This document shows, piece by piece, positions 16,170 to 64,000 of a stretch of DNA of 64,000 nucleotides. How positions within the stretch are numbered: position 1 is the stretch's first letter; each line of letters begins with the position of its first letter. The notes under the pieces are model-generated. The model was not told the origin of the DNA. It saw only the letters and a program-made list of their open reading frames with translations, and ran no database searches. The stretch lies in the IMG/VR virus record IMGVR_UViG_3300008954_003312, positions 1 to 64,000 of that record; one strand, written 5' to 3'. The stretch comes from a virus. The position numbers and the translations under genes were made by a program.

Positions 16170-17223
16170 AAAAGATAGCCATGAAGAGAGATCTTCTGAT
16201 GTTTTTCACTGTTTTGAAGATATAAAGAATGATAACTGGAGAAAGTGGGAATCTCAGCACTCTAAAGAGTATAAGAACTATAGAAAAGAGTGGGTTAAGT
16301 ATCCAAAAGAGCTTAAAGTTGCTGACAGCCCTCTCCACCTAGATATTGAAGTTTCAAGTCATTGCAATCTAAAGTGCCCATTTTGCTCAAGAACACAGAG
16401 AATAGAAAAAGGGACATGGAGAAAGCCTGGAAATATTGATTTTGAACTTTATAAAAAAATCGTAGATGATATGTCAAAAAATGGGGTCTATGCTTTAAAT
16501 TTAAATGTTATAGGTGAACCCCTTCTTCATAAGAATCTTGGAGAGATGGTTGCGTATGCTAAGTTAAAAGGAATCATTGATATATTCTTTCACACAAACG
16601 GTGTCCTATTAAATGAGAAAAGATCAAGAGACCTAATCTCTTCAGGTCTTGATAAGCTTATTATATCATTTGACTCTCCTTATAAGGAAAAATATGAAAA
16701 AGTTAGAACGGGCGCTAAGTATGAACAGGTCCTTGAAAACGTAAAGAGGTTTAAAGATATCCGAGAGGAGATGGGTTCTATTACGCCTGTCACAAGAATA
16801 AACTTTATAAAGCTTCCGGGTGTAACAGAGAAAGAGATAAGGGATATGGTAGATCTTTTTTCTCCCATAGTTGACTCAATAGGTCTTCTTGATTACATTG
16901 AGTCTGACAATAGCATCAGACAGACTGGAAGATTTAAAAAAGGGTATAAGTCTAATTTTGTCTGCTCTCAGCTCCTTACTAGGCTGACAGTTTATGATGA
17001 TGGAAGAGTTTTTCCGTGCTGCAGTGATTATGATGATGAGCTACCTCTAGGTGATATAAACAATCAGACATTACAAGAAATATGGAATTCTGATGAGCTT
17101 AATCATATTAGAAAAAAGCATTTTGAAGGTAAGTTTTATGAGCTTTCAGCTTGCGCTAAGTGTGATTATGCACTACAGGCAGATGGTGAGTTTAAAGATA
17201 GAAAGACTGCTGATGAGTATTGA
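16105..17223 (+). CDS. Radical SAM enzyme with SPASM-type C-terminal cluster domain
   Basis: A 372-residue protein. The radical SAM motif CNLKCPFC gives C87, C91 and C94; FHTNGVLL follows, and the C-terminal domain has TVYDDGRVFPCCSDYDDELPLGD and ACAKC, a SPASM-like auxiliary Fe-S site. Such proteins act as peptide- or sugar-modifying maturases or dehydrogenases. The start overlaps pseB by 65 bp with no strong ribosome site; an in-frame TTG at 16129 is an alternative. Position inside the sugar block suggests sugar or lipid tailoring, which is inference. Confidence 0.85.
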   Translation: MMKIFKWKLQKLKKLLSHIHPKKDSHEERSSDVFHCFEDIKNDNWRKWESQHSKEYKNYRKEWVKYPKELKVADSPLHLDIEVSSHCNLKCPFCSRTQRIEKGTWRKPGNIDFELYKKIVDDMSKNGVYALNLNVIGEPLLHKNLGEMVAYAKLKGIIDIFFHTNGVLLNEKRSRDLISSGLDKLIISFDSPYKEKYEKVRTGAKYEQVLENVKRFKDIREEMGSITPVTRINFIKLPGVTEKEIRDMVDLFSPIVDSIGLLDYIESDNSIRQTGRFKKGYKSNFVCSQLLTRLTVYDDGRVFPCCSDYDDELPLGDINNQTLQEIWNSDELNHIRKKHFEGKFYELSACAKCDYALQADGEFKDRKTADEY

Positions 17224-17229
17224 TTTAAA

Positions 17230-18240
17230 ATGTCTCTAGACTATCTTAATTTAGAGATACCAGAAAATTTTAATGAGTATTGTCTTATTTTTAAAAATAA
17301 TCATAGTAAGATTTATGCTAATTTAATGCCTAAGTGCGGTACAATGTATGTTAGACAGGCAATGTATAATTCAGGAATCTGGAAAACAAATCACCTTCAA
17401 CCGGGAACAGATTCATTTTTAGTAAGGAAAAATAATCATCCAGGTGTCTCAATCTTATTATCTCAGGAGCAAGAAGACTTTGCCAACAAGTCAGAGATGA
17501 GAGTTGATCAGATTAAGGGGCTAATAGATAAAGGACATCTTTGCCCGACTGAAGGTCCGATTCTAAGGGGAGATCACTATATATGCTCTGACTTAAACGG
17601 ACCTTCTTCAGTTATATCTGATAGTGGTGTTGCAAGAGCCTGGAATAGAGATCAAACTAAAATATTTAAAAAAAGACTATTTTGGTTTTCTGTTTTAAGA
17701 AATCCATTTAATTTACTTGTAACTTACTTTACCTTTGGATGGCCGTGGAATAGAAATAGTAATCAAAAAATATTTAGTAGTTTTGATTATTTTATTGAAT
17801 CATATTGTGATCTAGATTATAAATGGCCTGTTGCAAATAATAAGAATTTTTTATTTTTTCCAATATTTGACAACAAGGACACCTGCAGGTGTCCAATTTT
17901 ATTTAGACTAGAGTTTATAGATTTTTGTCTGGAGGCTCTTTCTTTACAGTTTGGTTATAAATTTATAAAACCAGAATTGACTAAATCTTCTAGACCGCCT
18001 GGGTCTAGTATAGACAAGTGGAAGTCGTACTATAGTGAAAAGCTTTTTGATCTTGTTTCTAAAAAATGCAAAAGAGAACTATTGGCATTTGGATATGATT
18101 TTGACGGAATCAAAAAAAATGATAAGAGAAAGATTATTGACTCTTCAAATATAAAATACAGTATTAAAGAAGATAAATTATCTATATTGCCCTATAGAAG
18201 GGAATTAATCTTTAAATCACTGGAGGGATTTCATGAGTAA
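17230..18240 (+). CDS. PAPS-dependent sulfotransferase family protein
   Basis: A 336-residue protein. The 5'-phosphosulfate-binding loop is MPKCGTMYVRQ near residues 33-43 (canonical PKSGTT), and the 3'-phosphate-binding segment VLRNPFNLLVTYF near 155-167 aligns with RNPxxxxxSxY, with Thr for Ser. The C-terminal YYSEKLFDLVSKKCKRELLAFGYDF is the usual sulfotransferase ending. It would transfer sulfate from host PAPS to a sugar hydroxyl or amine. It overlaps the cytidylyltransferase gene by 8 bp. Confidence 0.8.
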   Translation: MSLDYLNLEIPENFNEYCLIFKNNHSKIYANLMPKCGTMYVRQAMYNSGIWKTNHLQPGTDSFLVRKNNHPGVSILLSQEQEDFANKSEMRVDQIKGLIDKGHLCPTEGPILRGDHYICSDLNGPSSVISDSGVARAWNRDQTKIFKKRLFWFSVLRNPFNLLVTYFTFGWPWNRNSNQKIFSSFDYFIESYCDLDYKWPVANNKNFLFFPIFDNKDTCRCPILFRLEFIDFCLEALSLQFGYKFIKPELTKSSRPPGSSIDKWKSYYSEKLFDLVSKKCKRELLAFGYDFDGIKKNDKRKIIDSSNIKYSIKEDKLSILPYRRELIFKSLEGFHE

Positions 18241-18937
18241 GATTTTTTGTGTTATACAGGCTCGATTGACTTCGAAAAGATTTCCAAATAAAATATTTCA
18301 AAAAATAGGAAAAAGATTAGCCATAGAGCATGTTCTTAGTTCTTGTAAAGATTCTATTTCAGAAAAGGTTCTACTTGTAGTTCCAAAAGATCAAAAAGAA
18401 ATATTTGAAAACCAGCTAAGTTCAATCTATAATAGTAAAAAGATTTCTATACACGGGGGATCTGAAGACAATGTTTTAGACAGGTATCAGACAAGCCTAG
18501 AAGAAGAAGGCTGTCAAGAAGAAGATATAGTTGTTAGAATAACATCAGATTGCTTTTTAATAAGCCCTATCTTTATTGATAGATCAGTAAGCTATTTTAA
18601 AGAAAAGACTTTCGACTATATTAACAATAGCACGGTTACAAGAGTTTTATCTGCAGACAATCCCGATGATTATCAGACTGATACAGACACGCCGGATGGA
18701 TTTAATGTAGAAGTTTTTAACTTTAGATCTCTAATCGAAGCTCACAATAATGCTACCAGCCAATACGATATTGAGCATGTCACACCCTGGATTAAGAGAA
18801 ATAAGAAGTGTAGTGTCTTTAATACTGGAAAGATATCATTAACTGGGAAGTTTTCTGTTGATACTCCAGAAGATCTTGAAATAGTCAGGGCTCTCCACAC
18901 TCTCATAGAGAACAATAGAATATCTTTTGAGGTATAG
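18233..18937 (+). CDS. CMP-nonulosonate cytidylyltransferase, SpsF/NeuA-like
   Basis: A 234-residue nucleotidyltransferase. The N-terminal signature VIQARLTSKRFPNK (residues 7-20) is the CTP-binding loop of SpsF/KdsB/NeuA-type enzymes; GGSEDNVLDRY, RITSDCFLI and SVDTPEDLE complete the family pattern. It should activate the sialic acid-like product of the NeuB homologue to the CMP sugar for transfer. A strong GGAGGG box lies inside the sulfotransferase gene 10 bp before the start. Confidence 0.88.
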   Translation: MSKIFCVIQARLTSKRFPNKIFQKIGKRLAIEHVLSSCKDSISEKVLLVVPKDQKEIFENQLSSIYNSKKISIHGGSEDNVLDRYQTSLEEEGCQEEDIVVRITSDCFLISPIFIDRSVSYFKEKTFDYINNSTVTRVLSADNPDDYQTDTDTPDGFNVEVFNFRSLIEAHNNATSQYDIEHVTPWIKRNKKCSVFNTGKISLTGKFSVDTPEDLEIVRALHTLIENNRISFEV

Positions 18938-18938
18938 C

Positions 18939-19748
18939 GTGAGATTTTGCATTGTTGGATACGGAAGCATAGGAAGGCGACATCACTCAGTACTTTCTTC
19001 TATTTTTTCTAATTCCTCTTTTGATATAGTTGATTTAAACACAGAGCTAAAAATAGAAGATTGTATCCATAGTGAGTATGATGTTTTAATAATTACAACT
19101 CCCACTTCTTCTCACCTGGATGTTCTTTCTAGATTTTCTAAAATCAATAGATTAATCTTTATTGAAAAGCCTTTAGATATTTCATCTAAAAAAATTAAAA
19201 AATTTATGGGAGATGTTGATCACAGAAAAGTTCATGTTGGATGTAACCTTAGATTTACTAATGCTTACAGAGATCTTCAAGACATATCACATAGAGTAAA
19301 AATCGCTAATATTATATCAATGTCGTATCTGCCAGATTGGAGAAAGGGAGATCACAGAGAGCAATATAGCTCTATAGTATCGCAGGGCGGCGGTGCTCTT
19401 TTGGATTTTATTCATGAGCCTGATTATGCTTTCTCTTTATTTGGGATGCCTAGTTCTTGTCATGTGTTAGAAAATAGGCTATTTGATATAACAGTTGACT
19501 CTAATGACACTTGCTCTATGGTCTGGGAATACAATGATAAAATTATTAATTTTTTACTTTCTTATGGAAGTAAAAAATACACTAGAAGTTGCCAGGTCGT
19601 ATTAGACGACAGTGAATTGACTAGTATCAATTTTTCTTTAGAAGATATTAATAAATCCTATGAAAATCAGTGGAGGCATATTTTAAAAAACGGTCCTGTA
19701 AATACATACGAAGACTGTTTAAGATTATATCATAAAATAGGATTATAG
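18939..19748 (+). CDS. Gfo/Idh/MocA-family NAD(P)-dependent oxidoreductase
   Basis: About 269 residues from a GTG two bases past the previous stop, with GAGGT five bases ahead; a TTG 12 bp upstream is less likely. GYGSIGRRH at the N-terminus is the dinucleotide site; TTPTSSHLDVL and EKPLD carry the conserved catalytic-site Lys; GGGALLDFIHEPDYAFSLFG matches the substrate domain. It is shorter than the usual 330-370 residues. In nonulosonate clusters such enzymes oxidise or reduce a nucleotide-sugar intermediate; the step here is inferred. Confidence 0.85.
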   Translation: MRFCIVGYGSIGRRHHSVLSSIFSNSSFDIVDLNTELKIEDCIHSEYDVLIITTPTSSHLDVLSRFSKINRLIFIEKPLDISSKKIKKFMGDVDHRKVHVGCNLRFTNAYRDLQDISHRVKIANIISMSYLPDWRKGDHREQYSSIVSQGGGALLDFIHEPDYAFSLFGMPSSCHVLENRLFDITVDSNDTCSMVWEYNDKIINFLLSYGSKKYTRSCQVVLDDSELTSINFSLEDINKSYENQWRHILKNGPVNTYEDCLRLYHKIGL

Positions 19749-19750
19749 AT

Positions 19751-21001
19751 ATGAAACAAGAAGATCTCTGGGCTAACGCTTTATCACTTATGCCTCGCGG
19801 AACCCAGACAATGAGTAAGTGCCCAGATCAATTTGTTGACGGGGTTTATCCAAAATTTGCAGCCAGGGCTGAGGGTGCCTATATTTGGGATCATAAAGGT
19901 AATAAGTATTTAGACTTTATGTGCGGCCTCGGCCCAATTATACTAGGATATAATCACAAACCAACAAACAAGGCTGTAAGAGCTCAGCTAGAAAAGGGAA
20001 TTATATTTTCTTTACCGACAGTCCTTGAGCAAGAGCTTGCTAGTCTTATGGTTGAATCAATACCTTGTGCTGAGCAGGTCAGATTTGGAAAAAATGGAAC
20101 TGATGTTGATCTTGCTGCTGTTAGAATTGCTAGATCATACACTGGAAGAGAGCATATTGCCAAGTGCGGATATCACGGCTGGGGAGATTGGCATGCAATT
20201 AGCCTTAGATCGTATGGAGTCCCTAAGTCGCTAGGAGAAATAATTCATGAATTTGAATATAATAATCTCGAAAGCTTAGAGAGAGTATTAAAAAATCATG
20301 AGTGTGCTGCAGTTATAATGGAAGCTCAGGCCCTTACACCGCCAGATCCTGGTTTTCTTCAAGGAGTTAAGGATCTTTGCGGTTCATACGGCGCTCTTCT
20401 CATCTTTGATGAGGTTGTGACGGGTTTTAGATGGGATCTCGGAGGTGCTCAGTCTCACTATGGAGTAACACCTGACTTGGCATGTTTTGGAAAGGCAATG
20501 GCAAACGGATTACCAATATCAGCCATAGCTGGAAAGAGAGAGTTTATGAAAGAACTTGATCACATCTTCTTTTCAATGACATTTGGCGGTGAGTGTCTTT
20601 CACTTGCTGCTGCTATAGCAACTATTAAAGAACTTAAGAATAAAGACTATAGCCACATTTGGAATCTAGGAAGAAGGTTTGAAGAGGGAATGAACCTACT
20701 TTCAAGACAGTATGATCTTTCTATAAGCTTTTCAGGATCTGGACCAAGACATAATCTTACATTTTCAGAAGAATATAGAGATCCATCAGGAATGAAAGAT
20801 CTTTTTTATCAAGAAATGGTAAAGAGGGGCGTTTTGTTTTCTAATGTTCTTTATATAAGCTTTGCTCATACAAAGCTAGATATAGAATTTACACTAAACG
20901 CTGCTGAAGAATCTTTTAAAGTTGTTAAAGAAAATATCGATAATATTGACGCTGTTCTTGAAGGAAAGAGATCAGTTTCTGTTTTTAGGAAAAACACGTG
21001 A
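19751..21001 (+). CDS. Class III PLP-dependent aminotransferase, HemL/glutamate-semialdehyde aminomutase-like
   Basis: A 416-residue enzyme of normal length. The PLP-site Asp is in LLIFDEVVTGFRW and the Schiff-base Lys is K248 in CFGKAMANG; FGKNGTDVDLAAVRIAR is the phosphate-binding region. HemL normally makes 5-aminolevulinate, but there is no other haem gene here and it sits directly before NeuB with a 4 bp overlap. It therefore probably aminates a keto-sugar, replacing the DegT-type PseC transaminase; that role is inference. Confidence 0.9.
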   Translation: MKQEDLWANALSLMPRGTQTMSKCPDQFVDGVYPKFAARAEGAYIWDHKGNKYLDFMCGLGPIILGYNHKPTNKAVRAQLEKGIIFSLPTVLEQELASLMVESIPCAEQVRFGKNGTDVDLAAVRIARSYTGREHIAKCGYHGWGDWHAISLRSYGVPKSLGEIIHEFEYNNLESLERVLKNHECAAVIMEAQALTPPDPGFLQGVKDLCGSYGALLIFDEVVTGFRWDLGGAQSHYGVTPDLACFGKAMANGLPISAIAGKREFMKELDHIFFSMTFGGECLSLAAAIATIKELKNKDYSHIWNLGRRFEEGMNLLSRQYDLSISFSGSGPRHNLTFSEEYRDPSGMKDLFYQEMVKRGVLFSNVLYISFAHTKLDIEFTLNAAEESFKVVKENIDNIDAVLEGKRSVSVFRKNT

Positions 21002-22023
21002 AATCATTTGTCATAGCTGAAGCAGGAGCTAATCACAATAGAGATTGGAAAATTGCCAAAAGCCTTATAAGAAGTGCAGCTAGATCAGGTTCAGATGCTG
21101 TAAAATTTCAAACATACACTTCAGAGACTCTTTACGCTAAAAATACACCTGACTTTGCAGGTTATAAAAATATTAATCAGCTAATAAAAGATATTGAGCT
21201 TCCTAGATCTTGGCAAAAAGACTTAAAGTTATTTTGTGATGATTGCGGAATAGAGTTTATGTCTACTCCCTTTGATGAAAAGGCTGTCGATGAGCTTTAT
21301 GACATCGGAGTTAAGCGATTTAAGATTTCCGGATTCGAAGCTACAGATCCAAGAATTGTTCAGCATGTTGCTAGAACTGGACTACCTATGATAATAACAA
21401 CCGGAATTAAGTGTGATATTTCTATGATGAAAAGTATTTTAGAATGGATCCAGGATGTTAATTCAGAACCAGACGTAACATTCCTGCATGGCAATCATGC
21501 CTATCCAACACCGATTTCACAGATATGTCTAGGACAGATAGGAGTTCTTAAAGATGCTTCTTTTTCTATTCCTGTTAAGATTGGAATTTCTGATCACACT
21601 AGGGGAATATTAATTCCACCTGTTGCTGTTTCTCTCGGCGCAGAAGTTGTTGAGAAACATTTTACTCTAGATAGAAATATGGAAGGCCCAGATCATCCAT
21701 TCGCTATAGAGCCCTTTGAGCTGTCTCTAATGGTTCAGAATATTAGATCAGTGGAAAAATCCATGGGTATTAGAGAAAATAAAGTTTCTGAGAGTGAATC
21801 TAGCTTTATTCATGCAACAAGATCAGTAGTAGCAAAAAGTCCACTAAAGAAAGGTGATCTGCTTTCAAGAGAAAATATAACAACAATGAGACCGTGGTTT
21901 GAAGACTCTATTCCAGCTTCAAGCTATCTAAAGATAATAAATGGAAATATTTTTATTCAGAAAGACATAGATGCTGGGACTATTTTAAAACTGTCTGATA
22001 TTTGTGAGAATAGAAATGGATAA
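20998..22023 (+). CDS. neuB: Nonulosonic acid synthase, NeuB/PseI/LegI family
   Basis: A 341-residue two-domain synthase starting with GTG in a GTGA overlap. The TIM-barrel domain opens with FVIAEAGANHNRDW, has SDAVKFQTYT, FMSTPFDEKAV, the HGNHAYPTP segment, KIGISDHT and VVEKHFTLDRNMEGPDHPFA; a C-terminal SAF (antifreeze-like) domain starts near residue 280 (RSVVAKSPLKKGDLLS). It condenses PEP with a six-carbon amino sugar to a nine-carbon sialic, legionaminic or pseudaminic-type acid. Which one cannot be told by eye. Confidence 0.93.
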   Translation: MKSFVIAEAGANHNRDWKIAKSLIRSAARSGSDAVKFQTYTSETLYAKNTPDFAGYKNINQLIKDIELPRSWQKDLKLFCDDCGIEFMSTPFDEKAVDELYDIGVKRFKISGFEATDPRIVQHVARTGLPMIITTGIKCDISMMKSILEWIQDVNSEPDVTFLHGNHAYPTPISQICLGQIGVLKDASFSIPVKIGISDHTRGILIPPVAVSLGAEVVEKHFTLDRNMEGPDHPFAIEPFELSLMVQNIRSVEKSMGIRENKVSESESSFIHATRSVVAKSPLKKGDLLSRENITTMRPWFEDSIPASSYLKIINGNIFIQKDIDAGTILKLSDICENRNG

Positions 22024-22693
22024 ATGTGTATTTGCTTCTAAGGACAATGAATGGTCTAATGCTCTTTATGATCGTCTAATATCAAAAAATAAAGATATTT
22101 CTTGGATGAGAATCTCTAAAGAAGCAGATTTAAATGCTATTCATAGTTTTGATCCTGACTGGGTTTTCTTTTTTCACTGGTCCCAAATAGTTGACAAGGA
22201 TATTTGGGATAAACATCGATGTGTAGTTTTACATACATCAAACTTACCACATGGAAAAGGAGGAAGCCCAATACAGAACCAAATTTTAGATAATGTCATT
22301 CAAACTAAGGTCAATGCTATTGAAATGACTGATAAAGTAGATTCTGGAAAGATTTATTGTAATAGGCTGATTACTCTTCAAGGAACTTTAAGGGATATAT
22401 GGATGACTATAGCGATTCAGTCATATGGATTGATTATAAAATGCATAAAAGAAAATCCCAGACCTGAAGAACAAAAAAAAGAATCTGTCATAAAAACTTA
22501 CAAGAGAAGAAGAAGTAGCAATATTGATCTTAACTGTACTTTAAATCAAGCTTATAATCAAATTAGAATGCTTGACGGTGAGGGATATCCAAGATCAAAT
22601 ATAAAGATGGGAAATTTTATTATAGAGTTTTCTAGAGCTGGATTTGATAATAGTGGTAATCTAATTTGTGATGCAAGATTTAAAAAAGTATAA
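22016..22693 (+). CDS. Formyltransferase-fold enzyme, probable sugar N-formyltransferase
   Basis: About 225 residues; the start is the ATG overlapping the NeuB stop region, with an in-frame GTG 12 bp upstream as alternative. The formyltransferase core is visible: WVFFFHW, the catalytic-His segment VVLHTSNLPHGKGGSPIQ and DKVDSGKIY with the conserved Asp. The Asn that normally sits two residues before the His is Val here. It may N-formylate an amino sugar from 10-formyl-tetrahydrofolate; N-formyl pseudaminic acids are known in bacteria. Confidence 0.8.
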   Translation: MDKCVFASKDNEWSNALYDRLISKNKDISWMRISKEADLNAIHSFDPDWVFFFHWSQIVDKDIWDKHRCVVLHTSNLPHGKGGSPIQNQILDNVIQTKVNAIEMTDKVDSGKIYCNRLITLQGTLRDIWMTIAIQSYGLIIKCIKENPRPEEQKKESVIKTYKRRRSSNIDLNCTLNQAYNQIRMLDGEGYPRSNIKMGNFIIEFSRAGFDNSGNLICDARFKKV

Positions 22694-23342
22694 AAATGTC
22701 TTAGTCCTGGCAGCGCATCCTGATGACGAGACGCTGGGGTGTGGAGGCACTATTTCAAAACTTTCATCCCTGGGCTCTATAGTTAGGCTTTTAACATTTA
22801 CTGACGGGATAAGCGCAAGAGAGCCCGGTCAGAGAGTTTCTCATCTTTCTCAAGTTTCTCAAAGATTGGGAATATTTCAATATAAGTCTTTTGATTTTCC
22901 TGATAATAAGATGGATTCCATACCCATTTTAGATGTTGTAAAGAAAATAGAAAAATACATGGATGATGAATCTTTTAGGCCTGATTTAGTTCTAACACAT
23001 TCTCCGTTTTGCTTGAACATTGATCATAAAGTTGTATATAATGCAACTATAACTGTATTTAGAGGTTTAGATATTTTTAGCCCTATAAAGATTATGTCCT
23101 ATGAAGTTCCATCTTCTTCTGAGTGGAACTCACTTTCTAGCTTTGTTCCAAATTGCTATATTGACATCAAGTCTCAGCTAGAAGATAAGCTTGAAGCACT
23201 TTCTTTTTATAAAGATGAAATGAGAAATCATCCTCACCCTAGGTCATTTGAGAATATTAAAAGGCTTGCATCTGTCTATGGATCTCAATGTGGATTAGAG
23301 CTAGCTGAAAGATTTATGATTATTAGAGAGGTAATTAAGTGA
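22671..23342 (+). CDS. PIG-L/LmbE-family zinc-dependent N-deacetylase
   Basis: About 223 residues. The zinc-binding AHPDDE lies at residues 15-20, followed by TLGCGGTI, and the second metal-site segment is HSPFCLNIDHKVVYNAT. LmbE-like enzymes de-N-acetylate GlcNAc-type sugars. The gene overlaps the formyltransferase by 23 bp without a clear ribosome site, so coupled translation is likely. Deacetylation would free an amine for the neighbouring formyl- or acetyltransferase, an inferred order of reactions. Confidence 0.88.
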   Translation: MQDLKKYKNVLVLAAHPDDETLGCGGTISKLSSLGSIVRLLTFTDGISAREPGQRVSHLSQVSQRLGIFQYKSFDFPDNKMDSIPILDVVKKIEKYMDDESFRPDLVLTHSPFCLNIDHKVVYNATITVFRGLDIFSPIKIMSYEVPSSSEWNSLSSFVPNCYIDIKSQLEDKLEALSFYKDEMRNHPHPRSFENIKRLASVYGSQCGLELAERFMIIREVIK

Positions 23343-23872
23343 TTAAGGGAGAAAAATGTTTTCTTACAGCAGTTAATCCAGATTCAATAGAGACTTTAAG
23401 GAACTGGAGAAACAATCCTAAGCTAAGAAGATACTTTAGGGAATTTAGAGAGATTAGCAAGCCTATGCAGGAATCCTGGTATAGAGATAGAGTTCTAAAC
23501 AATCCAAATCAATTTGATTTTGAAATACGAGATAAAGAAACAGGAAGCCTAATCGGACATTGTGGTCTTTATTACGTTAACTGGGTTAGTCGATCAGCAG
23601 AGTTTACTATATACATTGGTGACTTTAGCTTTAGGGGACAGGGAATAGGAAGTGATGCGCTTAGATCACTAATAAGATATGGATTTGATGATTTAAACCT
23701 TAATAGGATATGGTGCGAGGTTTATTCTAACAATGATGCTATTCACATTTATGAAAAAATTGGATTTATTAAAGAGGGTGTTATGAGAGATCAGTACTAT
23801 AGTGAAGGAAAGTATTGGGATAGTACAATCTTATCAATGCTTAGCAGTGATTGGAAAAAAGAGCTTTCTTAG
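23339..23872 (+). CDS. GNAT-family N-acetyltransferase, RimL/PseH-like
   Basis: A 177-residue GNAT starting with GTG in a GTGA overlap with the PIG-L gene. The acetyl-CoA loop is FRGQGIGSDALRSL near residues 98-111, followed by NRIWCEVYSNNDAIHIYEKIGF, the classic GNAT motif B. PseH-type GNATs acetylate the 4-amino group of the UDP-sugar precursor of pseudaminic acid; the context fits that role, but RimL-like enzymes have many substrates. Confidence 0.87.
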   Translation: MIKGEKCFLTAVNPDSIETLRNWRNNPKLRRYFREFREISKPMQESWYRDRVLNNPNQFDFEIRDKETGSLIGHCGLYYVNWVSRSAEFTIYIGDFSFRGQGIGSDALRSLIRYGFDDLNLNRIWCEVYSNNDAIHIYEKIGFIKEGVMRDQYYSEGKYWDSTILSMLSSDWKKELS

Positions 23873-55051: not shown

Positions 55052-57829
55052 ATGTCTCTAATAAAGATCTTACCAGAATATCTTGAGACCTTTACCCTAA
55101 CACTACACCCTAACAGGAGGTTTGTTTCTTCTTCTGCGGAGGGTGTAACGACTGGTTCACTGTCGCTATCAGCGAGACCTAGCACATCTGTAAAGAGCAT
55201 AGTTAAGATGTCAACCGGATCTGACACGTCTGGCTTTGAGGGCTCAGTCTTTGATTTATCAAACTACTACCCTAGCAATATACTCGAAAGTGTAAATAGG
55301 GATTATTTAGATAATTACAGAGACTCATCGTGGGATGGAACAGCTAGCTATACATCTAATATGGTCGCATATTTATCAGGTGTTCATGAGACGACTGGGT
55401 CTCATAGAAACGCTAGGACATTTGAAATCACTAGATTTGATGCTCCTTTTGAACTATCTAAAGAGAATGGTGTTAAGAACTTTGTTAGAAACGGTCTAAT
55501 GTCATCATATAGATCAAGATATACCGGTTGTGACTTTACCTATACAAATTATAGCTCATTAAACTTTTTTACCTCTTCTGACGTTCCTTCAGGCTCAGCA
55601 CTAATTTATCCAAACTTTAGCGGTGCAACACCAGGTCTTCTTCCCGTTGGAAGCAGTGAAGTTGCCGAGAGGGGTTACGGTCTTCAGCAACCCAGGCCTT
55701 ACACACCCTATAAGGGATTTACTCTTCAGTTTTACATAAATCCAAGGTATACAACTGATGATCCAGTTCAGCACGGAGGGGCTAGCAGCCCGACTTCAGG
55801 AAGTGTCTTTAGAGCTGGAACTATTATGCACCTATCTTCAACTTTTGCTGTCTCTCTTGTGACTGGGAGTGGAGTTGATGAAAGCGGATATCCCAATGGA
55901 TACCGAATCATGCTTCAGTTAAGTCATAGTTGTGACACTAAGCCCTCTGATGTTGATCTAAGCATAACAAACAGCAGAAGAGATGTTCCAAATGATCTGA
56001 TCTTTCTATCAGATGATAATGTCCTGACAAGAAATCACTGGCATCATGTCTCTATACGATGGGATGCTGCGACTAATAATAGAGGCACAGGATCTTTTTA
56101 TGTGGACGGATCAGAGAGAGGCAGCTTTGCTGTTCAGTCTGCTTCAATTGCTGCAACAGAACCGTTTAAGTCTCGACCTAGCGGAAATGATCCAAGGATT
56201 ACATGGGGATCAGATGCTCTTGTGATTGGAAACTTTTTTGAGGGATCACACATCGGTCAGCTTTTTAACGGACCTGCTACTGGTAGTGAGGGATGTGCGA
56301 GAAAGGTTTTTTCTGATGGAGCCGACAATCCCTATCACAGCAGCATTGATCCTGCTGTGGGATTCCATCACCCATTAAATGCTGAGATCCACGAGGTGCA
56401 GATCTGGAAGAGGTCCCTGGCAAATGACGAGGTAAGCACTTTAATGAAAAAAGGTGTCGGATCTATAGACGCACCGTGGTCTGAGAATAACTTTTCAACA
56501 AATAAAGCCTCTCTCATAGCTCATAATGATCTTTGCTTTTATCTTCCTCCTTTCTTTGTCAAGGAGTCCAATCCCAGAAAAGTTACTGCGACACCTTTCC
56601 TATTTTCTGAAGGGACAAACGGATTTTCTGCTGTAGACCTCGACGGCGGCCAGACTCTGGGAACATTCTCTTCTACAACTACTTCACAGACAGATACACC
56701 ATTTCATCTAACAGCATCACTTTCTGTTGGAGGACACATTGTTAGTCTTGAGAACTATGTTAGAGACTTTGTTACCGGGTACTATCCTAGACTTTTTCAC
56801 CTAACAGCAACTATTATTGACACAGCTGGATTTACAGCTAGCCCTAGCAGTTATATCAAGCTAGATCCCGACGGAGAAAAGTGGAGTGCTAATAGATATT
56901 TTTATTCTCAGATGTTTGGAGCATCTGGGTCCCAGATAGCAAAGAGAAATTTAACTATCTTGCCAAACGATAATGGAAAGTTTCAACCTAACTTTGATCT
57001 TCTTGAAACTGGATCCGGCTATGGTCTTTCTAATGAACCTGACAGCATCTTTAAGACTTCACTGGGTGCAATTGATAGATCGATTGTAAGTCTCAATGAG
57101 ATGATATTGACAGGTGCCCTGGGCACTCCGCCTCTTCCTGGTGATTTTGATGTTGATGACAAGAGCTTTATGACAGACATCTGCGGAGCAGCTCCCTCTT
57201 CTGGCTCAACAATAACCCCTCCTGATTCTTGTAACATTAGTAGAAATTACATACATTATTTCTCTGTCTATAATCAAATAAGAGATCCTAGTTCTAATCA
57301 GCTTACATTTTTTAATATTCCAAATCTGTACTATGGTCAAAGAATATTGCCTGAAACATTTAAGATAATTGACCCTAGCATGACTGGATCTGGAGGAAAG
57401 GTCAAGATCACCCTTAAGGACAATGGAAAAGGGGGACTCTATAGAGCAGACTGTACAGGATCTCACCCTACTTGGTCAAATGTTGGAAATGTTTTTTATG
57501 AAGAGGGCGTTGCGATTATTAAATCTCCAAATCTTCCCTTGTTTGCAACAGGAGCATTTGAGACATCCTTCCAGGGAGAGCAGAGTACACATGTTTTGAC
57601 AATCAATGCTCCCTGTGAAACTGGAATGTTTATGTCATCTTCTAACCCATCGTTCAAAGTTCTATCAGCTTCCCTTGATCCGAATGAATACGACCCTGAG
57701 TTTGTATACATTACGGGCTTTAATCTTCATGATGATAATCTTAATGTTATTGGAAGGTCAAATCTTGCTCAGCCCTTAATCAAGAGGTCTAGCGATGAAT
57801 TTCTTTTTAAATTTAAAATGGATTTTTAA
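55052..57829 (+). CDS. Large tail protein with LamG-like domain and shared C-terminal module
   Basis: A 925-residue protein with AAGGAG before the ATG. Residues about 215-470 form a LamG/ConA-like domain (KGFTLQFYINPR, NHWHHVSIRWD, GSFYVDG, AEIHEVQIWKRSLA). From about 735 on (NIPNLYYGQRILPETF, GNVFYEEGVAII, FVYITGFNLHDDN, FKFKMDF) it matches the C-terminal module of the preceding gene product. It may be a receptor- or glycan-contacting baseplate protein; that is inference. Confidence 0.65.
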   Translation: MSLIKILPEYLETFTLTLHPNRRFVSSSAEGVTTGSLSLSARPSTSVKSIVKMSTGSDTSGFEGSVFDLSNYYPSNILESVNRDYLDNYRDSSWDGTASYTSNMVAYLSGVHETTGSHRNARTFEITRFDAPFELSKENGVKNFVRNGLMSSYRSRYTGCDFTYTNYSSLNFFTSSDVPSGSALIYPNFSGATPGLLPVGSSEVAERGYGLQQPRPYTPYKGFTLQFYINPRYTTDDPVQHGGASSPTSGSVFRAGTIMHLSSTFAVSLVTGSGVDESGYPNGYRIMLQLSHSCDTKPSDVDLSITNSRRDVPNDLIFLSDDNVLTRNHWHHVSIRWDAATNNRGTGSFYVDGSERGSFAVQSASIAATEPFKSRPSGNDPRITWGSDALVIGNFFEGSHIGQLFNGPATGSEGCARKVFSDGADNPYHSSIDPAVGFHHPLNAEIHEVQIWKRSLANDEVSTLMKKGVGSIDAPWSENNFSTNKASLIAHNDLCFYLPPFFVKESNPRKVTATPFLFSEGTNGFSAVDLDGGQTLGTFSSTTTSQTDTPFHLTASLSVGGHIVSLENYVRDFVTGYYPRLFHLTATIIDTAGFTASPSSYIKLDPDGEKWSANRYFYSQMFGASGSQIAKRNLTILPNDNGKFQPNFDLLETGSGYGLSNEPDSIFKTSLGAIDRSIVSLNEMILTGALGTPPLPGDFDVDDKSFMTDICGAAPSSGSTITPPDSCNISRNYIHYFSVYNQIRDPSSNQLTFFNIPNLYYGQRILPETFKIIDPSMTGSGGKVKITLKDNGKGGLYRADCTGSHPTWSNVGNVFYEEGVAIIKSPNLPLFATGAFETSFQGEQSTHVLTINAPCETGMFMSSSNPSFKVLSASLDPNEYDPEFVYITGFNLHDDNLNVIGRSNLAQPLIKRSSDEFLFKFKMDF

Positions 57830-58371
57830 TGATTTTAGGGCTGGATATATCTACTAGCTGTACTGGCTGGTGTATTGTTGGACCAAGTGGTAATTTAATT
57901 GACATGGATTCGATTGTCTTATCAAAGGATAAGACAATATTTAAGAAAGCTCAAAAGGTTAGGAGAGAATTATCCAGGCTGAATATTGAATATGGAATTG
58001 AAAAGGTGTGCATTGAGGAAAATTTGCAGGCATTTAGACCAGGACTCTCTTCTGCAAGGACACTTCTAACCCTTGCGAGATTCAATGGAATCGTGAGCTA
58101 TCTTGCACAAGAGGAGTTTTACTTTTCTCCAACATTTATAAATGTAAACACAGCTAGAAAGGCGCTTGGAATAAAAATTAAAAGAAAAAAAGATGGAGGA
58201 AAGCCAACAAAAGACCAGATTATAGAATGGGCATCTGGTGAACTAAATAATTTTAAGTGGCCAACAAAGGTTTTAAAAAGCGGACCTCGTAAAGATCAGT
58301 GTATTTTGGATCCAGTAAGCTATGACATGGCAGATGCATATGTGATTTCAAGAGCGGGATTAATTATTTAA
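57829..58371 (+). CDS. RuvC-like Holliday-junction resolvase / RNase H-fold nuclease
   Basis: A 180-residue protein. LGLDISTSCTGWCIV with D6 is the first RNase H-fold motif; VCIEENLQAF (E62/E63) is the second; DMADAYVIS near 165-171 supplies the last Asp residues. This is the RuvC/poxvirus-type resolvase layout used to resolve branched DNA before packaging. The ATG overlaps the preceding virion gene (TAATGA). It may replace T4 endonuclease VII (gp49). Confidence 0.85.
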   Translation: MILGLDISTSCTGWCIVGPSGNLIDMDSIVLSKDKTIFKKAQKVRRELSRLNIEYGIEKVCIEENLQAFRPGLSSARTLLTLARFNGIVSYLAQEEFYFSPTFINVNTARKALGIKIKRKKDGGKPTKDQIIEWASGELNNFKWPTKVLKSGPRKDQCILDPVSYDMADAYVISRAGLII

Positions 58372-58402: not shown

Positions 58403-59359
58403 ATGAAGTCTATAACAGAAAGACTTAGATTTGTTAGATCAGTTTTTGGAAAATCTCATCTTGCAAATAATGGAGTTGATGTTGCTGTTAGATGCCCAAG
58501 CTGTAATAGTAAGTCGAAGAAGAAACTATCTATAAATCTTGAGACTTGGCAGTATCACTGCTGGGTATGTGGAATAAAGGGAAAGGATTTATCTTTTATT
58601 TTAAAAAAGTTTTCTAATCCAGAAGACTTATCACTATACAGTTCTGAATTTTTAGATCAAAAAAATACTGATTTAATAGTAGAAGAATCCATTGAAACAC
58701 CCAGCCTTCCAGATGACTTTATTTTACTTGCTGACAATTTAAAAACAAGAGATCCCGATCTTAGATCATGCCTTCTTTACTTAAAGAAAAGAGGGATTAC
58801 AAAAAAAGACTTATGGTACTTTAAATTAGGTACATGCAGATCTGGTACACATCGTAGAAGGGTTATTACTCCATCTTTTGATGCAGATGGATATTTAAAT
58901 TTTTACTCTTCTAGGACTATCGACGATGGAAGAATAAAATATCTAAATTCTAAGTTTGACAAGAGAGACATTGCATTCAATGAGATAAACATTGACTGGA
59001 AAAGAGAGTTAACAGTTGTTGAAGGACCATTTGATTTATTTAAATGCAATGATAATTCTACTTGTCTGCTTGGTTCAAGTCTAGGTGAGGGTCATTTTCT
59101 TTTTAGACGAATTGTTGCCAGCGCAACACCCGTTTTACTTGCTTTAGATAGTGATATGATTCAAAAATCATTTAAGATTGCTAGACTTTTATCAGAATAC
59201 GGAAGCCAGGTTAGAATTCTTAACTTAGAGGGAAATGAAGATGTTGGTAGCTTGACAAAAGAAGCTTTCTTAAAGCTAAGAGAAAGAGCAGCTCCATACG
59301 ATAGAAATATTGATTTAATCAGTAGAATTGGATCACTTAGAAGTGGATCAATTATCTGA
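58403..59359 (+). CDS. DNA primase, DnaG/gp61-like
   Basis: A 318-residue primase. The N-terminal zinc ribbon has C31-x2-C34 and C53-x2-C56 (RCPSCNS, YHCWVCG). The TOPRIM-type centre shows VVEGPFDLFKC near 205-215 and LALDSDM near 247-253, supplying the catalytic Glu and Asp pair. It is short compared with bacterial DnaG (about 580) and similar to T4 gp61. It would prime lagging-strand synthesis; the helicase gene is outside this window. Confidence 0.9.
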   Translation: MKSITERLRFVRSVFGKSHLANNGVDVAVRCPSCNSKSKKKLSINLETWQYHCWVCGIKGKDLSFILKKFSNPEDLSLYSSEFLDQKNTDLIVEESIETPSLPDDFILLADNLKTRDPDLRSCLLYLKKRGITKKDLWYFKLGTCRSGTHRRRVITPSFDADGYLNFYSSRTIDDGRIKYLNSKFDKRDIAFNEINIDWKRELTVVEGPFDLFKCNDNSTCLLGSSLGEGHFLFRRIVASATPVLLALDSDMIQKSFKIARLLSEYGSQVRILNLEGNEDVGSLTKEAFLKLRERAAPYDRNIDLISRIGSLRSGSII

Positions 59360-59470: not shown

Positions 59471-62400
59471 ATGAGAATAATACATCTCGCTGATATTCAC
59501 TGGCGCGGACTTTCTAGGCACGAAGAATATCGTGAGTCTTTTTCAAAGTTTTTTAAGATTGCGAGAGAGCTAAATCCAGACGTTATCTATGTTGGCGGTG
59601 ATATTGTTCATAGCAAGACACAGGGAATATCTCCAGAGCTGATAGACAGCCTTTCTTGGTGGTTTTCTGGCATGGCACAGATATGTCCAGTTCATGTTAT
59701 ACTTGGAAACCATGATGGGCTGATTCACAACAAGGGAAGACAGGATGCAATTACACCTATTCTTTCTGCTTTAGACAATTCTAATATCCACCTTTATAAG
59801 GAATCAGGAACGTATCCTACTGGCGTTCCAGGATTTAATTGGTGCGTTTTTTCTTGTTTTGATGAAGCAGGTTGGAGAAATGTATATCCTGTTAATGATG
59901 AAATTAATCTTGCGCTATTTCACGGAGGTGTTCTGGGGTCGAAAACAGATATTAACTGGGACATCGAGGGTGAAGTTACAGTTGATTTTTTTGATAAATA
60001 CGATTTTTCTCTCTTAGGTGACATACATAGACTTCAATATCTAGATGATAGGAAGACAATAGCTTATCCAGGTTCTACAATACAACAAAACTACGGTGAA
60101 GATCCTGGTAAGGGATTTTTATTTTGGGAGATAGAAAGTAAAGATAAGTTTACTAGCAAATTTTATGAAATACCTCATGATAGACCCTTTATTACAGTTG
60201 ACTGGAAGGGTGATTTAAATAAAACATTGCTAAGCGCAAAAAAGTATTCTGACAAAACGAGATTTAGAATCAGATCAGAAAATCCAATTTCTCAAGAAGA
60301 TATACGGTCTCTTCAGAGAGACTTAAAAAGTATTAAAGACGCCACAGAGGTCGTCTTTAAGTGTGAGAGTAGCTTTGATTCTTCTAGAATAAGAATGAAA
60401 AAAGGTGAGATTAAGAAGAGAGATCTCCGTGATGCTGCTACACAAAAAAGATTAATTCGTGAGTACTATCTTAACAATGAAATATCTGATGATATGCTTT
60501 CTGAATTTGATTCACTTGTTGCAAGATACCTTTCTCAAATAGCTGAGACAGATTCTGTGGTTAGAAATACAAGATGGAATATCAATAAATTGAAATTTGA
60601 TAACACGTTTGCATACGGAAATAACAATATTATTAATTTTGATCATCTACCTGGAATAACTGGAATATTTGGAAAGAACGCCAGGGGAAAGTCAGCAATT
60701 GTCGGATCTTTGATGTATGGACTTTTTAATACAACCGATAGAGGGTCTATTAAAAATATTCATATTATAAACAATAGAAAAGATAGCTGCTGTGTAGAGA
60801 CAGAGATTACAGTCAATGGAGATAGGCACAAAGTAGAAAGAAAGACAATAAAGCATCAGACCAGAAAAGGCGAAGTCTATGCTTCTACATCAATGTCTTT
60901 TTTAAGGCTGGGTGCAGAAGGTGAAGCTGATAAAGATCTTTCTGACGAGCAGAGAAGAAAAACAGAAAAAATATTAAAAAGATCAATTGGTTCATCTGAA
61001 GATTTTCTAATGACTGCCTTAGCATCTCAGGGTCAGATGAATACCTTTATTAAAGAAAGGGCAACTTCAAGAAAGATGATTTTATCAAAATTTTTAGACC
61101 TAGAGGTCTTTGATAAGATGCATGAAAAAGCCAAGGAAGATTCATCTGAGCTTAGAAGCCAGATTAGAAATGTTCCTGATATTGACTGGGACGCAAAGAT
61201 AGATGATTTAAAATTTAAATTAATAAATAAGAAAAAAGATATTGAGACAACAAATGAAAGACTGGGCTTAATTAGAGAAAAATTACAGCAGATTAAGATT
61301 GAGCTTGCTGTTTCTGATAATCCAAATGTAGTGACAACATCAGAGATAGAAAGACAAGTGTCCAGCATAGAAGCTCTAAAAGTCAGTCTAGATAGTCTTC
61401 TAGAAGAAAAAGAATTATTATTAAAAGATATTAATGAAAAGAATGGATTAATTTTAAAGATAAGGCTTGCCAAATCTGACTTTTCAATTGAAGACTTTAA
61501 GAAAAAGCTTGAGTTTCACAGAGAGTTAGAGAAGAAAATACTTTCTATAAGCTATGAATATGAAAAAGAAAAGATCACACTAGATGATCAGAAAAAGTCC
61601 ATTAAGATACTTTCTGAAGTCCCGTGCGGAGATCAGTTTCTAAGCTGCAAGTTTATTAAAAATTCTCATAAAAATAAGTCTTTAATAGAAGATCAGAGAA
61701 AAAAAGTTAAGTCCCTAGGGAGTGATCTAAGAAAAAATAGAAGATTTCTAAAAGACATGAATCTAGATGAGATCGAGAAGAGCATGTCTAAGTTTGAAAG
61801 TCTAGAGAAAAAGCAAGTTGAATCATCCCTTCAGGTTTCTAGATTGCGTGTTTTATTGGGAAATAAAGAAAATGAAATAGAGTCTCTTAACAATATGCTA
61901 ATTACAAGCTCAGAAAGACTTGAGGATATGAATGCTAGAGTAGTTGATGATGATTCTAAGGATATATCTTCAAAATTAAAATCAAGAATTGTGACTCTAG
62001 AATCACAAATAGAAAAATTAGATAAAAATAGAACAAGTCAAATTGATAAGATTACCAGAATTAAGGTTGAAATTTCCAGGATAGTAGATCAAAAATCTGA
62101 ATATGAAAAGATAAAAAATCAACTAAAAATTTATGATATGTTTATACAGGCAGTCTCTAAGAAAGGAATTCCTCTACAGATCATGATGTCCCAGCTTCCT
62201 ATCATTAATTCTGAAATTGAAAAGATATTACAGGGTGTTGTTGGATTTACAGTATCTCTTGAGGCTGACGATGAATCAAATTCTATGGATGTCTATATAG
62301 ACTATGGTGATTCTAAGAGAATTATCGAGCTTGCTTCTGGCATGGAAAAAATGATGGCTTCACTTGCCATCCGCGTTGCATTGATTAATGTTTCAACACT

Positions 62401-62608
62401 GCCTAAGACAAACATGCTCATTATTGATGAGGGATTTGGTGCTCTAGATGAAAATAACATAGAGGCTTGTGGTCGTCTTCTTATTTCATTAAAAAAGTGG
62501 TTTAGAAATATTCTAATAATATCACACGTTGATGCTATTAAAGATGTTGTTGATAATTCACTTGATATTATAAAAAAAGAAAAGGACTCCTATGTGATCC
62601 ATGAGTAA
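59471..62608 (+). CDS. Single-chain Mre11-Rad50 (gp47-gp46/SbcD-SbcC) fusion
   Basis: A 1045-residue protein. The N-terminal phosphoesterase has D8-x-H10, GGD at 42-44, GNHD at 79-82, FHGG near 150 and GDIH near 187. About residue 365 the ATPase starts (NINKLKFDNTFAY), Walker A GKNARGKS at 401-408, a coiled coil of about 400 residues with a C719-x6-C726 apex, ASGME signature near 955-959 and Walker B/D-loop MLIIDEGFGALDE near 981-993. It processes DNA ends. No internal stop or frameshift separates the halves. Confidence 0.93.
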   Translation: MRIIHLADIHWRGLSRHEEYRESFSKFFKIARELNPDVIYVGGDIVHSKTQGISPELIDSLSWWFSGMAQICPVHVILGNHDGLIHNKGRQDAITPILSALDNSNIHLYKESGTYPTGVPGFNWCVFSCFDEAGWRNVYPVNDEINLALFHGGVLGSKTDINWDIEGEVTVDFFDKYDFSLLGDIHRLQYLDDRKTIAYPGSTIQQNYGEDPGKGFLFWEIESKDKFTSKFYEIPHDRPFITVDWKGDLNKTLLSAKKYSDKTRFRIRSENPISQEDIRSLQRDLKSIKDATEVVFKCESSFDSSRIRMKKGEIKKRDLRDAATQKRLIREYYLNNEISDDMLSEFDSLVARYLSQIAETDSVVRNTRWNINKLKFDNTFAYGNNNIINFDHLPGITGIFGKNARGKSAIVGSLMYGLFNTTDRGSIKNIHIINNRKDSCCVETEITVNGDRHKVERKTIKHQTRKGEVYASTSMSFLRLGAEGEADKDLSDEQRRKTEKILKRSIGSSEDFLMTALASQGQMNTFIKERATSRKMILSKFLDLEVFDKMHEKAKEDSSELRSQIRNVPDIDWDAKIDDLKFKLINKKKDIETTNERLGLIREKLQQIKIELAVSDNPNVVTTSEIERQVSSIEALKVSLDSLLEEKELLLKDINEKNGLILKIRLAKSDFSIEDFKKKLEFHRELEKKILSISYEYEKEKITLDDQKKSIKILSEVPCGDQFLSCKFIKNSHKNKSLIEDQRKKVKSLGSDLRKNRRFLKDMNLDEIEKSMSKFESLEKKQVESSLQVSRLRVLLGNKENEIESLNNMLITSSERLEDMNARVVDDDSKDISSKLKSRIVTLESQIEKLDKNRTSQIDKITRIKVEISRIVDQKSEYEKIKNQLKIYDMFIQAVSKKGIPLQIMMSQLPIINSEIEKILQGVVGFTVSLEADDESNSMDVYIDYGDSKRIIELASGMEKMMASLAIRVALINVSTLPKTNMLIIDEGFGALDENNIEACGRLLISLKKWFRNILIISHVDAIKDVVDNSLDIIKKEKDSYVIHE

Positions 62609-62888
62609 TCATAAAATAGTTGAAGAAAATGAAAGATTTAATATAGTATCTATTTATTTTAAAAATAGAGACGGATTTGTTCCTGTGTTTTGTCCTGTGT
62701 GCAGCTTCTTGATGAGAGGGTCTAGTGATTCTGAATCTTATTTTAAATTTAAATGCTGCTTTGATTGCGGAATGAGGTGGGCACAGTCCAGAAAGAGGGA
62801 ATGGAATGACGGCTGGAGACCCGAAGATGATGAAATTCAACAAGAGATTTCTCAAAGGAAGAAAATTCCGCCAGCATTCCATCTATGA
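62601..62888 (+). CDS. Small zinc-ribbon protein, function unknown
   Basis: A 95-residue protein overlapping the SbcCD fusion by 8 bp. CPVC near residues 31-34 and CCFDC near 51-55 form a zinc-ribbon Cys quartet. The tail is Trp-, Glu- and Arg-rich (MRWAQSRKREWNDGWRPEDDE). Coupling to the recombination nuclease gene suggests a DNA- or protein-binding accessory; no family is recognised. Confidence 0.6.
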   Translation: MSNHKIVEENERFNIVSIYFKNRDGFVPVFCPVCSFLMRGSSDSESYFKFKCCFDCGMRWAQSRKREWNDGWRPEDDEIQQEISQRKKIPPAFHL

Positions 62889-62922: not shown

Positions 62923-63303
62923 ATGCTTTCTATTGAAGAAATTAGAGCTATAGGACAAATTTGTGATACAACCTGGGGAAGATATTCGACTGCTTCTTCT
63001 CCGACAATGTCGATTAAAGCGACACTTCAGGGTGATAAATTAACAATTAGATATCTAACAGTCTGTCATCTTGCATCTGAGAGAGAGCTCAGAGGTCAGG
63101 TTGATTCAGTATCAGACGAGTCTATTCAGATTACAAATGACTATATGAAAAATTTGAGAAAAGAATTTAAGAGCATATCCGGTCGAGCGATTAAGACAAA
63201 GAAGGAGTCAACACAGGACAGTATTGAAATGCTGACCACGTCTCCGTACACACCTAGAAAAACAGCGTACTATAGAAGATTTACAACATTTACGATTGAA
63301 TAA
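62923..63303 (+). CDS. Small conserved-looking protein upstream of terminase, function unknown
   Basis: A 126-residue protein with TAGGAG ahead of the ATG. It has an ordered helical N-terminus (SIEEIRAIGQICDTTWGRY) and a basic C-terminal tail (TPRKTAYYRRFTTF) with no catalytic motif. TAATG overlap with the terminase gene suggests a linked role in the packaging or neck stage; that is inference. Confidence 0.55.
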   Translation: MLSIEEIRAIGQICDTTWGRYSTASSPTMSIKATLQGDKLTIRYLTVCHLASERELRGQVDSVSDESIQITNDYMKNLRKEFKSISGRAIKTKKESTQDSIEMLTTSPYTPRKTAYYRRFTTFTIE

Positions 63304-64000
63304 TGGCTATAATCAATAAGTCAAATCAGATAAAGGAAATAATAAAGTGTGGAAAAGATCCTACTTATTTTTTTAATAGCTACCTAAGAATTCAACACCC
63401 TGTAAGGGGGCTGATTCCGTTTGACACATATCAGTTTCAAGATGAGTGTGTTGATACATTTATAGAAAATAGATTTTCAATAGTTCTTAAATCCAGGCAG
63501 CTAGGAATGTCAACACTGGCTGCAGCATACGCTGTCTGGCTAGCACTATTTCAAAAAGATAAAAATATTCTCATTATTGCTACTAAGCTTAGTGTGGCAC
63601 AAAACTTTATATCTAAAGTCAAGATAATGATACGAAGCCTTCCAGCCTGGCTTGTCCTACCTCAGATTGTAACAAACAATAAACAGCTTTTAGAATTTAG
63701 TCATGGATCTTCAATCAAGGCTGTTCCAACTTCAGAAGATGCAGGTAGGTCAGAAGCACTTTCACTTTTGATTATTGATGAGGCAGCGTTTGTTCGTAAT
63801 TTTGATGAACTGTGGATGGGACTCTATCCTACAATCTCAACAGGTGGACGAGTTATTATATTGTCTACGCCTAACGGTGTAGGTGGGCAGTATTATAAGC
63901 TTTATACAGATGCTGAAGCAGGATTAAATGAGTTTAAGTCAATTAAGATACCATGGGACGCTCACCCAGAACGAGATCAAGACTGGTTTGATAAGACAAC
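63303..64000 (+). CDS. Terminase large subunit, gp17-like (3' truncated by window end)
   Basis: The first 232 residues of the packaging motor are present and the frame is open at the window end. The Walker A-like loop SRQLGMST at residues 64-71 is the T4 gp17-type variant (SRQLGKT), Walker B is LLIIDEAAF near 155-163, and ILSTPNG near 185 is the coupling motif III. FDTYQFQDE is the adenine/Q-motif region. The C-terminal nuclease domain lies beyond the window. Confidence 0.92.
   Translation, partial: MAIINKSNQIKEIIKCGKDPTYFFNSYLRIQHPVRGLIPFDTYQFQDECVDTFIENRFSIVLKSRQLGMSTLAAAYAVWLALFQKDKNILIIATKLSVAQNFISKVKIMIRSLPAWLVLPQIVTNNKQLLEFSHGSSIKAVPTSEDAGRSEALSLLIIDEAAFVRNFDELWMGLYPTISTGGRVIILSTPNGVGGQYYKLYTDAEAGLNEFKSIKIPWDAHPERDQDWFDKT

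Follow-up and report, generated by a model that had tools for sequence, protein, structure and literature searches.

A single-chain Mre11-Rad50 fusion in a large aquatic tailed phage

Why would a phage encode Mre11 (SbcD) and Rad50 (SbcC) in one chain, and does the covalent link matter to the enzyme? The question is raised by one gene in a 64,000-nucleotide stretch of IMG/VR virus record IMGVR_UViG_3300008954_003312 (hereafter the window). Our analysis suggests, with a probability of roughly 0.87, that this gene encodes a single-chain Mre11-Rad50 nuclease of a large aquatic tailed phage, which belongs to an R555-like fused family and would work as a 2:2 homodimer. The evidence comes from the fusion itself, from the presence of nearly all catalytic and ATPase motifs, from purifying selection, gene order and the predicted fold, and from the placement of fused phage proteins in one clade.

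The gene and all of its parts lie on the plus strand. It runs uninterrupted for 1045 codons (59471-62608), from an ATG at 59471 to a stop at 62606-62608 with no internal stop codons, and its open frame, Pfam and PHROGs matches and relatives identify it as a fused Mre11-Rad50 (SbcD-SbcC) gene. In Pfam searches with the 1045-aa protein, residues 1-181 matched Metallophos (7e-13) and residues 373-606 the Rad50-type AAA_23 family (1e-9); a weaker match to the SbcC Walker B family (residues 952-1004, 1e-4) falls under that family's curated cut-off. When the halves were scanned separately against PHROGs, residues 1-369 matched phrog_100 (SbcD-like, 1e-31) and the remainder phrog_77 (SbcC-like, 8e-53). 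With lengths of 989 and 967 positions, respectively, these two profiles probably include fused members already. In the 76-kb record containing the window, which is an incomplete genome, this frame accounts for the only SbcC-like and the only SbcD-like match. The gene is a Mre11-Rad50 fusion with Mre11 first and both halves complete. The sequence-only reading had described a complete phosphoesterase running into the Rad50 Walker A, and this is what we find: Walker A (GKNARGKS) spans residues 401-408 (approximately 60671-60694), just within the upper edge of the interval, 60500-60700, which that reading had singled out.

An AF2 monomer model of the protein (27 sequences, pLDDT 84) resolves these halves into domains, whose relative placement is unsure because pTM is only 0.58. 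The Mre11 nuclease domain (residues 1-235; 59471-60175), which is also supported by the Metallophos match and motif alignment, carries D8, H10, D44, N80, H81, H151, D184 and H186. A cap domain follows at approximately residues 240-320 (60188-60430); the Mre11 half matches PDB entry 7dog, a structure of the S. aureus SbcD nuclease and cap. The next element, a helix-loop-helix at residues 322-360 (60434-60550; modeled helices 322-332 and 340-360), is by Mre11 anatomy the putative Rad50-binding part, and it is joined to the Rad50 head by a linker of ~7 residues (361-367; 60551-60571) whose length is near-constant in an alignment of 27 family members. The Rad50 head consists of an N-terminal ATPase lobe (residues 368-560; 60572-61150) and a C-terminal lobe (residues 886-1045; 62126-62605), both supported by Pfam, alignments and the model, and is interrupted by a coiled coil with ~160 residues per arm. 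The outgoing arm (residues 561-716; 61151-61618) and the returning arm (residues 731-885; 61661-62125) are helical in the model and meet at an apex loop (717-726). The C-terminal lobe contains the signature ASGMEK, Walker B IIDEGFG, D-loop ALDE and H-loop ISHVD, giving with Walker A a bipartite Rad50 ABC ATPase whose motifs flank the coiled coil. The best viral matches to the model in Foldseek were DNA repair proteins of Tupanvirus, Harvfovirus and Yasminevirus (1343-1389 aa), and the next, from phages, were proteins of pT24 and PTm1 and H9NCG5 (1301 aa, a length equal to that of PAU gp288); the solved PDB structures matched include Mre11-Rad50 and SbcCD complexes.

The Mre11 motifs DxH, GD, GNHD, H and GHxH are all present, with GDIH replacing GHxH; this change in motif V, in which the His before the last His becomes Asp, is found in nearly all fused phage proteins. 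In motif II the final Asp of GDxxD is replaced by His (GDIVH), and the ABC signature reads SGME, with Met for the second Gly of SGGE. Walker A, Walker B, the D-loop and the H-loop are conserved in the family. The three departures from textbook motifs (GDxxH, GDxH and SGME) might alter activity, and they would fit a nuclease-weak or structural Mre11-Rad50 variant that tethers DNA instead of cutting it. We consider such a variant unlikely: alignments show D8, H10, D44, N80, H81, H151 and H186 of the metal site to be kept family-wide, Asp can also bind metal, and SbcD homologues encoded as separate proteins likewise have GDLFH (phages K and WIL-1) or GDLH (T5-like phages).

We infer that two identical chains would most likely form the usual assembly of two Mre11 and two Rad50 units. 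The Rad50 lobes would clamp ATP, the Mre11 halves would sit beneath the ATPase heads, held by the short linker, and the coiled-coil apices would pair through their cysteine site. By analogy with T4 gp46/47, the complex may resect or cut DNA ends to start recombination-dependent phage replication and repair, with a RuvC-like resolvase and a primase encoded in the same cassette acting alongside it. In the Thermotoga complex the gap to be bridged is ~28 A and is estimated to need nine to twelve residues (PMC3175470), so that with a linker of ~7 residues an arrangement in cis is plausible but tight; an arrangement in trans is possible.

Fusions of this kind have been known since 2011, when Yoshida et al. 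(PMC3175470) described Mimivirus R555 and twelve more Mre11/Rad50 fusions in bacteria, plasmids, eukaryotes and Bacillus phage 0305phi8-36. The same study found R555-like reads abundant in aquatic viral fractions, inferred abundant aquatic-virus fusions, and noted that GOS scaffolds with R555-like fusions also hold phage genes, including primases. We found full-length fusions, under other annotations, in the cultured phages PTm1, PTm5, pT24, MA9V-1, MA9V-2, PAU and Mel-JY01, and in the uncultured 735-kb phage LR756501. To place them, we built a tree from head-domain columns of 20 fused proteins and 8 separate pairs (T4, E. coli, T5-like, staphylococcal, listerial, lactobacillar, campylobacter and cyanophage). 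With this phage sampling, a single branch (100/99) separates all fused rows from the separate ones. The ABC signatures of the fused rows (SGME, SGMQ or GGME) have Met at a position occupied by Gly in the separate rows, and all fused rows but PAU have GDxH. This pattern fits one fusion origin among the phages sampled. A separate origin in the window's phage group, unrelated to the other phage fusions, would accord with the argument of Yoshida et al. that several fusion events occurred and that fused forms are not monophyletic, but the branch at 100/99 and the shared motifs make it improbable.

The family to which the window protein itself belongs is large, conserved and found in aquatic phages. 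Dozens of IMG/VR contigs encode the same fusion at 30-94% identity, and with the cultured phages they give a positive outcome to the search in related phages that the sequence-only reading had suggested. Two scans of IMG/VR, one by query and one by family alignment, gave 34 distinct loci encoding the same protein (35-94% identity, mostly full-length), 33 of them with a single open frame to the contig limits and one, L034, split. A family-alignment scan of prokaryote genomes (one per species) confirmed no relative, and a plasmid search returned partial matches only, without a fusion of the window family. Against a 94% identical relative, NG86 dN/dS was ~0.09 for codons 1-368 and ~0.07 for codons 369-1045; both halves of the fused gene are under purifying selection. 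An internal start near the junction could add free Rad50 to the fused product, and in-frame GTG (60557, codon 363) and TTG (60590, codon 374) codons do lie at the junction; this is unlikely, as neither is preceded by a clear Shine-Dalgarno sequence in the window and, by inspection of the family alignment, the residues at both sites are not conserved as start codons. That an indel or lost stop in assembly or sequencing merged two genes can be dismissed, because dozens of independent contigs, some as distant as ~30-35% identity, conserve the fusion, with near-constant linker length and under purifying selection; the result that the sequence-only reading had named as refuting it, a stop or frameshift close to the domain junction, is excluded by full-length relatives (35-94%) that are open there in independent contigs. 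Such artefacts may exist elsewhere. The annotated 1009-aa fused exonuclease of Listeria phage LMTA-57 (L073, 117-3146) was rejected as an independent fusion and is a possible sequencing error, because its matched stretch is 2943 bases long, one fewer than the 2944 of WIL-1 and most close relatives, in which it is annotated as two genes.

The split locus is not alone: 12 related IMG/VR loci, near-copies among them (L034 1-3257; L072 3313-6547; L074, L075, L079, L087, L088, L089, L091, L093, L097 and L098), and the 484-kb phage LR756508 (L007, 2552-6777) carry the fused gene in two pieces. The cut always lies in the loop after motif V, between GDIHxxQ and YPGSxxQQN, and is thus inside the Mre11 fold and away from the Mre11/Rad50 junction. 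In most split loci the downstream start and the upstream stop overlap or are only a few bases apart, and the upstream pieces resemble one another in their tails (for example VELIIDEEELSKHPNAEVLEVLT). Compared with intact sisters, which read GDIHRQQFLGYRD-GKPWIGYPGT at the cut site, such a tail looks like an insertion between YRD and KPWIGYPG. We considered whether the frameshift in L034 was an error and rejected this, since other contigs have the same break, along with homologous tails and a new start. The tree (quick method; L097 represented by its near-copy L088) needs two changes, with LR756508 apart from the other split loci, and so points to at least two separate splits, in two lineages, after the fusion.

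Between the halves in LR756508 lies a 305-aa Cys-rich ORF (3273-4190 of L007) with family matches to HNH endonucleases and TnsA-like proteins, a putative homing endonuclease. An intein or Rfam-recognized intron at this break was considered and rejected: Rfam gave no match, and a split intein would need longer tails. The splits may have originated through homing endonucleases. There is precedent among T4-like phages, where mobE split Aeh1 nrdA and the products still reassemble (review PMC2988022). In the pairs of split pieces that we tested, both are under purifying selection and the motifs are kept. Since relatives re-split the gene and yet keep both halves under selection, the covalent Mre11-Rad50 link seems dispensable for this enzyme, and the re-split loci serve as a natural test of its importance. 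The idea that a single chain fixes a 1:1 nuclease-ATPase ratio is weakened accordingly by these relatives; moreover, the Mre11-Rad50 complex is normally 2:2, so fusion need not change the ratio.

The coiled-coil apex (61619-61660), a loop in the AF2 model, has the form PC-x6-C-x-FI (C719 and C726) in 27/27 aligned window-family proteins. The CXXC zinc hook is absent throughout these 27 proteins and present at the apex of all comparators, fused and separate. Further loci (all except L085 and L086) mostly have C-x6-C as well, with a longer spacing in L106 (PCSTALHPKCKFI). When aligned by eye to the CXXC of the sister clade, C726 corresponds to the first Cys and I729 to the second, which suggests an upstream shift of the second ligand to C719. 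That the hook site matters in canonical Rad50 is shown by the human CC-to-GG mutant, in which the arms open (PMC6969161). The C-x6-C apex may bind metal, with zinc assumed to mediate pairing; lacking CXXC, this apex offers a natural test of whether zinc-hook chemistry matters for Rad50 pairing. We see about even odds for a broader proposal, that the arms pair via an undescribed C-x6-C hook (through metal or a disulfide) and that at least two re-splits at one loop have yielded a functional nuclease in two pieces, broken within the Mre11 fold and not where Mre11 meets Rad50.

In nearly all long-enough loci of the window's own group, the fusion lies in a recurring gene order: RuvC-like protein, primase, fusion, small Cys-rich protein, 126-aa protein (p126), TerL and portal. 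In the window, all on the plus strand, these are a RuvC-like Holliday junction resolvase (57829-58371; phrog_159, 5e-14, and synteny), a DNA primase directly upstream of the fusion (58403-59359; phrog_47, 1e-34, and synteny), a small Cys-rich, zinc-ribbon-like protein (62601-62888) and the 126-aa protein (62923-63303), both placed by synteny and without significant matches in family searches, and a terminase large subunit that extends past the window end (63303-63998; phrog_5989, 8e-43). With terminase and portal, the source is clearly a tailed phage. Elsewhere in the window (15153-23872) are sugar genes resembling those of pseudaminic, legionaminic or sialic-acid synthesis (PseB-like, CMP-sugar transferase-like, aminotransferase, NeuB/PseI-like, deacetylase-like and PseH-like), adjoined by many glycosyltransferase- and epimerase-like ORFs; they probably serve glycan modification of the host surface or virion. 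In related loci we also noted a portal gene of ~1232 residues that runs off the stretch in L002 (10129-13824), and likewise in L014 and L016, versus 690 in L001, with intein-like stretches in L002 (CFRGDTLVYTTDGIF... and CLAADNMIPLLNGEI...), and two adjoining terminase-large-like ORFs of 224 and 546 aa in L035 (10603-12911), perhaps a split or interrupted gene.

What is new here is the genome context, which places R555-like aquatic fusions in tailed phages with a conserved primase-terminase cassette, and, beyond the known fusion, the C-x6-C apex and the later re-splitting inside the nuclease domain. Like the window protein, Mimivirus R555 has Mre11 N-terminal to Rad50 in a single chain, and in its published description, by which we judged the likeness, the last D of GDxxD is H and H206 is replaced by D (PMC3175470); the window protein has both replacements. 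These shared rare substitutions, with giant-virus homologues as top fold matches, may reflect common ancestry with R555. R555 is longer (1351 versus 1045 aa). R555-like marine scaffolds carry phage genes, primases among them, and the window fusion adjoins a primase. The phrog_35725 fusions of cultured phages (Tenacibaculum PTm1, PTm5 and pT24, Chryseobacterium MA9V-1 and Sphingomonas PAU), annotated merely as 'metallo-phosphoesterase' or 'DNA repair', are also one-chain proteins with an SGM or GGM signature, but differ in length (1301-1326 aa), in their CXXC hook and in their neighbors; PTm1, the sole recorded match, is ~22% identical to the window protein over 416 aa. The clade that unites Microcystis phage Mel-JY01 with huge phage LR756508 is sister to the window family in the tree and shares a primase nearby upstream, GDIVH or GDVAH, GDIH and SGME, but has a CXXC hook and, in LR756508, a split gene. 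The break in Aeh1 nrdA falls in a region critical to function, with or beside an endonuclease gene; this is a different enzyme, and the analogy fits the re-split relatives, not the window gene. The sequence-only reading had set the fusion against separate genes in T4 and bacteria; this contrast holds for T4 (gp47/gp46) and E. coli (sbcD/sbcC), but not more widely, as fusions are published in bacteria, plasmids, giant viruses and phages (PMC3175470). The T4 and E. coli proteins are the same two enzymes and presumably carry out the same reaction, but from separate genes (with two small ORFs between those of gp47 and gp46 in T4), and with a CXXC hook, a GHxH motif V and an SEGE or SGGE signature.
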